DNA of 64,000 nucleotides, from NCBI GenBank assembly GCA_020354625.1, contig CP070651.1:1999321-2063320 (forward strand), in the 5' to 3' direction. This DNA comes from Trueperaceae bacterium. Its GTDB lineage: Bacteria > Deinococcota > Deinococci > Deinococcales > Trueperaceae. Every line of letters starts with the position of its first letter. The first letter of the stretch is position 1. Under the pieces are notes generated by a model, which was not told where the DNA came from, did not search any database, and was given only the letters and a program-made list of their open reading frames with translations. The translations under genes and the position numbers were made by a program. Shown here piece by piece: positions 43,238-45,465 of the stretch.

Positions 43238-44680
43238 ATGGCAGCCATCTATCAGCGAGCACGGCCGAGAAGGTTCGACCAGATTGTCGGCCAGAGCCAC
43301 GTCACGGAAATACTGCTTGCCGCCATCAGTCAGCAGAAGATCGGGCATGCCTATCTCTTTTCCGGACCGAGGGGGGTCGGTAAGACGACGACTGCCCGCC
43401 TCCTGGCAATGGCTCTGAACTGCCAGCGAACATCTGCCGAAGAACGCCCATGCGGCTCCTGTGAAAGCTGCGAGCTCGTCCAGCGCGGCAGTCATCCGGA
43501 TGTCATCGAGCTAGATGCGGCCAGTAACAACTCCGTCGAGGACGTAAGGGATCTTCGGGAGAAGGTCACTTTGGCACCGCTACGTGGTGAAAGCCGCGTC
43601 TGGATTCTGGACGAAGCACACATGTTAAGCCGCGCGGCTTCCAATGCGCTCCTCAAAACTTTGGAAGAACCCCCACCGAAACTCGTCTTCATTTTAGCTA
43701 CCACGGAGCCCGAGAAACTCCCTGCCACCATTCTCTCACGCTGCCAGCACTTCAGATTTAGACGCTTGACGGACGCCGAGATTCGCAGCAAACTCGAAGG
43801 GCTCTGCCGGCAGGCGGAAATCGAGGCGTCTACGCCCGCGTTGGATTTGGTGGCTAAAGTTGCCGACGGTGCGATGAGGGATGCCGAAAGTTTGCTGGAA
43901 CGGCTCTTTACGTCGGGCAAGAGCATCACTCTCGATGCTGCCGAAGAGGCACTCGGCCTCCCACCACAAGAGCGACTCCGGCAATTGGCCGAAGCGCTAG
44001 TCGCTGGAGAGCTCAGCACGCTCTTCGACCTAGCAAACAGCTTCTACCAGCAGGGATACGCACCTCGCAGTATCGCCGAGAAGCTTTCGCTTACGCTCAG
44101 AGATGCACTCGTCAATCAAGTGAGCAAAACCGGAGACGGCTTCACCCTTGCGATCGAAGCGATCGATCTTCAACGCCTCATCCATGCACTCGACGACGAT
44201 CAGGAGCGGTTTACGAAACGAGACGATCTTTTCAGCCTTGAGGTTACACTCATCAAAGCCCTCAACACGCTTACGGGTCAGCTACCGCAATACTACCCGG
44301 GAGAAACCGTTGGCGAATCCGCTGAGCGGAACCGTCCCGCAACACCCGAGCCCACACTGCCCTCACTCGCAACCGAGAAACCACCCGAGGTGGCTAAACA
44401 GATTCCAACGGCCAAAACGATCGAACCCCCTGCGAGCAAGCTCAACTGGCACACCGTGAAATCGAAAGCAAACCCCCAACTCAAAGCCTTCCTCATGCCC
44501 GCCCAGGAGTCGATCCAAGATTTTCAGGTGACGCTTCGCTACAGCGAAACGCACAAGTTTCACTTTGCCGAGCTGAAAAAACGGCACGACGAACTGGTAG
44601 AGCTCATTCAACAAGTTGCGGGGCAACGCTACTCACTGCTCATCGAAGGTCCCGGAGAGACCCTCAGAAAAAAGTCCTAA
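43238..44680 (+). CDS. dnaX: DNA polymerase III subunit gamma (0-frame product of dnaX)
   Basis: Clamp-loader ATPase of the replicative polymerase. Walker A GPRGVGKTT (43-51), a four-Cys zinc module (C62, C72, C75, C78), Walker B DEAHMLS and sensor-1 ATTEPEKL are all present. The 0-frame product is 480 aa, ending two codons after a slippery A AAA AAG (44668-44674). The -1 frame continues for 150 residues to 45126 (separate entry), which would make a tau of about 629 aa. TAGCAT lies 8 nt before the ATG. It heads the dnaX-ebfC-recR cluster. Confidence 0.95.
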   Translation: MAAIYQRARPRRFDQIVGQSHVTEILLAAISQQKIGHAYLFSGPRGVGKTTTARLLAMALNCQRTSAEERPCGSCESCELVQRGSHPDVIELDAASNNSVEDVRDLREKVTLAPLRGESRVWILDEAHMLSRAASNALLKTLEEPPPKLVFILATTEPEKLPATILSRCQHFRFRRLTDAEIRSKLEGLCRQAEIEASTPALDLVAKVADGAMRDAESLLERLFTSGKSITLDAAEEALGLPPQERLRQLAEALVAGELSTLFDLANSFYQQGYAPRSIAEKLSLTLRDALVNQVSKTGDGFTLAIEAIDLQRLIHALDDDQERFTKRDDLFSLEVTLIKALNTLTGQLPQYYPGETVGESAERNRPATPEPTLPSLATEKPPEVAKQIPTAKTIEPPASKLNWHTVKSKANPQLKAFLMPAQESIQDFQVTLRYSETHKFHFAELKKRHDELVELIQQVAGQRYSLLIEGPGETLRKKS

Positions 44681-44705
44681 CGGAGCGTCCCGAGAGGGAT
44701 GCTCC
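44654..44705 (+). promoter_or_regulatory. Programmed -1 frameshift signal in dnaX
   Basis: SD-like GGAG (44654-44657), 10 nt, slippery heptamer A AAA AAG (44668-44674) in the correct phase (codons AAA AAG), 7-nt spacer holding the 0-frame stop TAA (44678-44680), then a 10-bp stem GGAGCGTCCC/GGGATGCTCC (44682-44691 with 44696-44705, one G-T pair) closed by a GAGA tetraloop. These are the same element types and order as in the E. coli dnaX signal. Confidence 0.85.
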
Positions 44706-45126
44706 TGCCCCCCCCACCTCAAAACCCGAGCAAGAACCCGCCTCTCCTGCGACCGCATCAAGCGGGCCACCAGAAACGATCGGGGCTGGTCTACCCGCCG
44801 AGCCGACAGCTTCTCGCGTTCAAGAGACAGAGCACTCAGCAGCGCAAAGAGAAGATAGCACGGCCATGATTATCGCCGAGAGCGAAACCCCCTTTACGCT
44901 CGAAGAACTCCCTCCCAACTTTTGGGAAGGTGAACAGAGCGCCCCCCCAGAGCCAGCACCCCATCAAGAACCTGAGCGGCAAGACCCGTCCGCACCAGCT
45001 CTAGAAGGGACCTGGGGAGTTCTTCAGACCCTCTTTCCTGGTCATATCATCCATACCGAAACGCTCTCCGAAGACGAGCTTGAAACAGAGGGAGCAGATG
45101 TTCAAAAGACCCCTCAAGACGAGTAA
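44674..45126 (+). CDS. dnaX: Tau-specific C-terminal extension of DnaX (-1 frame)
   Basis: Reading -1 after AAG gives 150 further residues with no stop until 45126. It is a Pro/Glu/Ala-rich linker (about 55 residues), then IIAESETPFTLEELPPNFWE and a compact end around GTWGVLQTLFPGHIIH and an acidic tail. Thermus tau also has a Pro/Glu-rich linker and a C-terminal region that contacts the polymerase; I infer the same role. It has no start codon of its own with a ribosome site. If frameshifting does not occur, this would be a frameshift mutation or an assembly error. Confidence 0.75.
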   Translation, partial: VLTERPERDAPAPPTSKPEQEPASPATASSGPPETIGAGLPAEPTASRVQETEHSAAQREDSTAMIIAESETPFTLEELPPNFWEGEQSAPPEPAPHQEPERQDPSAPALEGTWGVLQTLFPGHIIHTETLSEDELETEGADVQKTPQDE

Positions 45127-45153: not shown

Positions 45154-45465
45154 ATGAATATTCAAAAACTGATGAAAGAAGCGCAGAAAGCCCAGCGAAA
45201 AATGGCCGAGGCCCAGGAGCGCCTGGCCGACCTGTCGGTAGAGGGCAGCTCTGGAGGCGGCCTCGTCACCGTTACAGCAGGTGGAGATGGTACCGTCACC
45301 GGCATCAAGATCGACCCCAGCACAGTCGATCCCGAAGATGTCGATCTCTTGGAAGACCTTATCACAGCCGCTGTCAATGAGGCTCAGCGCAAAGCCAAGG
45401 AGCTCCAGGAGACCGAGCTAGGTGATGCCATGGGGGGCCTAGGTGGTCTGGGAGGGCTCTTTTAA
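45154..45465 (+). CDS. ebfC: YbaB/EbfC-family nucleoid-associated protein
   Basis: Small DNA-binding dimer (103 aa). IQKLMKEAQKAQRKMAEAQERL at the N-terminus, EGSSGGGLVTVTAGGDGTV and KIDPSTVDPEDVDLLEDLI in the core are typical, with a glycine-rich end. Position between dnaX and recR is the conserved bacterial arrangement. CAGGAGTC precedes the ATG. Confidence 0.95.
   Translation: MNIQKLMKEAQKAQRKMAEAQERLADLSVEGSSGGGLVTVTAGGDGTVTGIKIDPSTVDPEDVDLLEDLITAAVNEAQRKAKELQETELGDAMGGLGGLGGLF

Follow-up and report, generated by a model that had tools for sequence, protein, structure and literature searches.

A conserved arrangement for predicted -1 frameshifting to tau in the dnaX gene of Trueperaceae

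The normal reading frame of dnaX in the Trueperaceae bacterium analyzed here ends after 480 amino acids, and this raises the question how the long DnaX form, tau, would be obtained from such a gene. The gene is located in a window of 64,000 nucleotides (the whole stretch of DNA that was analyzed), which belongs to a genome available as one contig of 4.29 Mb. The closest named relatives are metagenome-assembled genomes of Trueperaceae, followed by Meiothermus and Thermus, which assigns the organism to Trueperaceae within Deinococcota. All features of the locus that are relevant for the question are compiled in Table 1.

Table 1. Position of the dnaX reading frames, the putative recoding elements and the adjacent gene in the window.
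Feature	Position	Strand	Remark
dnaX zero-frame ORF	43238..44680	+	gamma-like DnaX, 480 aa, most of the DnaX_C domain
SD-like GGAG	44654..44657	+	10 nt between GGAG and heptamer
Slippery heptamer A_AAA_AAG	44668..44674	+	in -1 shift phase
-1 frame tail of tau	44674..45126	+	150 codons plus stop; linker rich in Pro, LPPNFW, LFPG module
Zero-frame stop TAA	44678..44680	+	one codon 3' of the heptamer
Putative stimulatory hairpin, 10 bp and GAGA loop	44682..44705	+	stem 44682-44691 / 44696-44705
ebfC (YbaB family)	45154..45465	+	downstream gene, then recR

The 480-aa product was recognized by the NCBIfam model NF011524 (DNA pol III gamma and tau) with 624 bits at a cut-off of 601, and the Pfam families DNA_pol3_delta2 and DnaX_C (PF20964) were matched in the gene. 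At the site of interest the zero frame reads AGA (44666) AAA AAG TCC TAA (44678-44680), while the codons of the -1 frame extend from 44674 to 45123 with the stop at 45124-45126, giving a shifted product of 629 aa. Between the stop of this tail and the start of ebfC (45154) there is a gap of 27 nt, and the gene order dnaX-ebfC-recR is common to the window and E. coli. The window dnaX is therewith a two-ORF gene, in which the normal frame specifies a short DnaX and full tau is reached via the -1 frame.

The A run in the window dnaX consists of six A (44668-44673) and forms, together with the subsequent G, a heptamer of the X_XXY_YYZ type in the phase of a -1 shift (44668-44674). The SD-like element approximately 10 nt upstream, the distance known from the E. 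coli type, was calculated to form a duplex of -6.6 kcal/mol with the 3' end of the 16S rRNA, compared with -6.3 kcal/mol for E. coli dnaX at an equal 10-nt spacing. In the 16S rRNA, GGTTGGATCACCTCCT was found with a shorter search pattern; a pattern anchored at a fixed upstream position had no match. Downstream, a spacer of 7 nt separates the heptamer from a stem, and the hairpin folds with -21.1 kcal/mol (z = -4.4), a value that was equalled by 0 of 200 shuffled sequences; an equally strong stem is available at 0.2% of all positions in the window dnaX. Situated just downstream of the heptamer, as in the E. coli type, the hairpin is predicted to be stimulatory. Its identification as an intrinsic terminator was rejected, as no T run follows the stem, and a comparison of the element with Rfam yielded no meaningful match. 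The pattern AAAAAAGNNNTRACGG is present in only two copies in the 4.29-Mb genome, the second of which is flanked by short frames only. A first-pass annotation of this DNA had claimed a GGAG exactly 10 nt before an in-phase A AAA AAG, a 7-nt spacer with the 0-frame stop, a stem of 10 bp capped by a GAGA loop, a normal-frame end at 480 aa with a long form of about 629 aa by a -1 shift, and 150 open -1 codons ending just before ebfC. The elements were found at precisely these places, exact to the base, and our reading of both frames matched the claimed products.

The same annotation had attributed to the site the elements of E. coli dnaX with a reversed outcome, which holds true. In E. coli, too, GGAG lies 10 nt upstream of A_AAA_AAG, a hairpin is located a few nt downstream, and one of the frames runs into a stop shortly behind the site. 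There, however, the normal frame encodes tau and the shift leads to the short gamma, whereas in the window the normal frame, with its stop at 480 aa, encodes the short form.

A dnaX gene that needs recoding for tau represents a known kind of arrangement, since both the genes compiled by Antonov 2013 and the ribosomal candidates discussed by Atkins 2016 are of this kind. The former comprise 17 dnaX genes, nine of them with A10, whose recoding was ascribed to polymerase slippage; 12 of the 17 carry a poly-A of seven or more A, and five are without a listed poly-A stretch (Antonov 2013, PMC3711429). Like the window dnaX, these two-ORF genes, those of Chlorobium and relatives included, have a normal frame that ends early and require -1 recoding for tau. 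They differ in their runs, which are mostly A10 (also A7-A9), whereas in Trueperaceae A6G or A7 combined with an SD-like element and a hairpin predominate; the window dnaX with its six A lacks a poly-A of seven or more A. For a minority of bacteria tau seemingly derives from ribosomal frameshifting, and Chlorobium phaeobacteroides is a ribosomal candidate with E. coli-like potential stimulators (Atkins 2016, PMC5009743). In Thermus dnaX, gamma is formed by transcriptional slippage (Atkins 2016, PMC5009743). The recoding run of Thermus thermophilus is located at the position homologous to that of Trueperaceae, but Thermus-type genes mostly carry A9 in a continuous tau frame, whereas Trueperaceae have shorter runs, a normal-frame stop and a hairpin; a run of about nine A is absent from the window dnaX (A6). 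No record of dnaX recoding in Truepera or other Trueperaceae was found in the main texts of the literature searched.

To what extent the arrangement is conserved was seen from dnaX genes read across the Trueperaceae and about 40 genomes at the level of the order, many of the compared relatives being draft metagenome assemblies. Of the 33 Trueperaceae with a readable site, 31, distributed over 15 genera, combine a zero-frame stop directly behind this site with an open -1 frame, and in most of these 31 carriers the open -1 frame extends to the vicinity of ebfC. The heptamer is AAAAAAA in 17 carriers (in one of them, G002, within A9), AAAAAAG in 12, G_GGA_AAA in one and an off-phase A7 in one, and A_AAA_AAR at the same distance to the stop occurs in 29 of the 31 genomes with the arrangement. 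Genome G020 (L109), which carries G_GGA_AAA with only four A, has kept the stop, the hairpin and the -1 tail. These three features are also kept in G015 (L021), where the A7 is off the usual heptamer phase (AAA AAA ATA GTC TGA), due to either a sequence error or a different slip. Exceptions among the 33 are G004 (L105), whose tau frame is uninterrupted and lacks a run, and G008 (L107), where A9 lies within the tau frame. The first-pass annotation had named the dnaX genes of relatives as a check and uninterrupted tau frames without a stem-loop in relatives as an argument against its claim; the comparison spoke in its favor, with stop, open -1 tail, slippery site and enriched hairpin in the relatives and an uninterrupted frame only in G004 and G008.

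In the relatives 6-7 nt separate the heptamer from the start of the hairpin, and strong stems are enriched at the site relative to the remaining positions of these genes (KS p 3e-16, 28 genomes); in some relatives (G001, G002, G009, G017, G036) the hairpin is weak or unremarkable. At stem position 4 a G-C pair in 20 genomes is replaced by A-T in seven with the pairing kept, and at position 6 C-G, G-C, T-A, T-G or A-T are found between genomes, with changes on both sides of the pairs. These counts are supportive and are not to be read as a formal covariation test, because the relatives are non-independent and the best arm was chosen for each genome. The SD-like element is likewise enriched over 28 relatives (p 1e-11), more strongly at A6G sites, with a median rank of 0.028, than at A7 sites with 0.104 (Mann-Whitney p 0.055); conserved Gly codons could account for part of this enrichment.

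Taken at the level of sequence, these data make it probable, at roughly 0.86 by our own estimate, that the window dnaX yields a gamma-type product of 480 aa when translated in the ordinary way and, through programmed -1 ribosomal frameshifting, a tau of 629 aa. The ribosome would be held by the SD-like GGAG and the hairpin while two lysine codons are placed on A_AAA_AAG, a fraction of the ribosomes would slip back one base and so bypass the stop one codon on, and the shifted ribosomes would then translate the linker and the conserved C-terminal LFPG module. The ribosomal nature of the slip, the making of both products and their ratio we infer from the sequence, and the level of tau would presumably be set by the efficiency of frameshifting. 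The interpretation as a frameshift cassette, put forward in the first-pass annotation, is thus well supported by the elements, the relatives and the selection on the tail, while the arrangement itself had been published before.

A slip during transcription would lead to the same long product: RNA polymerase would add a base on the A run, and mRNAs with seven A would give tau by ordinary translation. For the window we regard this as improbable. Its run has only six A, although the sites of 17 of the 31 carriers have A7 or more, mostly one base longer than the window run, and slippage of RNA polymerase becomes likelier on the A9 of G002. Antonov 2013 assigns two-ORF dnaX genes with A7-A10 to this process (PMC3711429), and runs of A8-A10 are present at the homologous position in sister families; the conserved hairpin downstream and the SD-like element upstream, however, would act on ribosomes and not on the polymerase. 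Since the hairpin is located 3' of the run, it would still be untranscribed while RNA polymerase stands on the run, which argues for the ribosome. G020 keeps the arrangement on G_GGA_AAA without a long A run and therefore also points to the ribosome rather than to RNA polymerase. Moreover, the ribosome is favored in Trueperaceae because the runs mostly comprise six or seven A and because the spacing of the SD-like element in the window dnaX equals that in E. coli.

Ribosomal frameshifting would add a tail that bears the marks of a coding sequence. In ten pairs of relatives pN/pS of the tail was 0.43-0.75 for the -1 frame, against 0.83-1.8 for the two remaining frames, which contain stops; by this measure the -1 tail is evolving as protein. 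Of 28 tails, 26 contain the LFPG module and many an LP..FW motif, and weak matches to the LFPG module were obtained in sister families. The tail of G035 (L019) has no LFPG motif near its end, possibly as a result of an indel error in the assembly. Compared with Pfam, the tail alone gave no match, so that a distinct domain was rejected. Judging from DnaX biology, the tau tail may serve polymerase coupling.

It is very unlikely that the tail represents a small protein of its own, translated after reinitiation (86-aa ORF, ATG 44866), or is unexpressed, so that only the 480-aa DnaX is used. An ATG-started ORF does exist at 44866-45126, but about 64 codons of the tail precede the first start codon listed for it. 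Most of DnaX_C is already inside the 480-aa product; the profile nevertheless scores better across the junction (32.4 bits) than on the short product (26.8 bits), and in the single-frame genes of G004 and G008 the tail motifs, including LFPG, are continuous with DnaX. The conserved in-phase heptamer, the SD-like element and the hairpin would moreover be left without a reason. An assembly error or a recent inactivating mutation, with a true gene one A longer and in a single frame, has next to no probability and was rejected, error-prone as homopolymer runs are, because the zero-frame break is conserved at the same codon in 31 of the 33 family genomes, which come from 15 genera and were assembled separately. 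The direction of the break is identical in all of them, the hairpin is conserved, and the tail is under selection at the protein level.

The lysine tRNAs count against programmed ribosomal frameshifting. The source genome encodes tRNA-Lys UUU and tRNA-Lys CUU, as do many relatives, and with tRNA-Lys CUU present, slipping on AAG should be less frequent. In E. coli there is just one lysine tRNA, and CUU is missing (Atkins 2016, PMC5009743). Because of the second lysine tRNA, the 50% efficiency of E. coli cannot be assumed for the window dnaX. IS elements use A_AAA_AAG-type motifs in species with both tRNAs (Sharma 2014, PMC4066793). It was suggested that two lysine tRNAs may bear on the use of polymerase slippage in Thermus (Atkins 2016, PMC5009743), and the dnaX genes of Trueperaceae provide a test of this suggestion.

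In the sister families (Thermus and Meiothermus type) A8-A10 is found at the homologous position, mostly inside a continuous tau frame; the Thermus-type genes mostly carry A9, and some sister-family genes have a zero-frame stop. The distance of the recoding run from the conserved Trp of the C-terminal domain has a median of 68.5 codons in the sister families and 73 in Trueperaceae. Meiothermus/Thermus-type genes that combine A9 or A10 with an early zero-frame stop, from G072, G075 and G076 (L154, L155, L158) and in two further cases (L137 vs L140, G067/G068; L151 vs L149, G093/G090), stand beside close relatives whose A9 lies within the tau frame; the default dnaX product flips inside one family. 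In the tree, the Trueperaceae are united in one clade (SH-aLRT 99) in which the new arrangement occurs throughout; G008 is placed among the carriers. The genome of G008 is AT-rich, and its nesting with the carriers points to another change in the reverse direction or to a history of its own. With some reserve, we favor the view that within one order and at one homologous dnaX site RNA-polymerase slippage (A9, tau by default) gave way to ribosomal -1 frameshifting (A6G/A7 flanked by an SD-like element and a hairpin, tau obtained by shifting). The default subunit would thereby have been inverted, despite two lysine tRNAs, which had been assumed to disfavor ribosomal slipping on AAG.

As far as checked, the conservation throughout a family of Deinococcota looks new, and so do the apparent switch between mechanisms at a single site, the intermediate states that form a series, and the use of the arrangement despite two lysine tRNAs. 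At one position a natural series is available, consisting of A9 in frame, A9 with a stop, A7, A6G, G_GGA_AAA and no site, and this series from Trueperaceae and sister families makes the mutual replacement of RNA-polymerase slippage and ribosomal frameshifting directly testable. For genome annotation it means that a gene caller restricted to one frame will truncate tau in the Trueperaceae genomes with the arrangement. In the replicase the polymerase cores are linked to the clamp loader through tau, and a tau that depends on frameshifting would therefore mean that the make-up of the replicase is set by the behavior of the ribosome.
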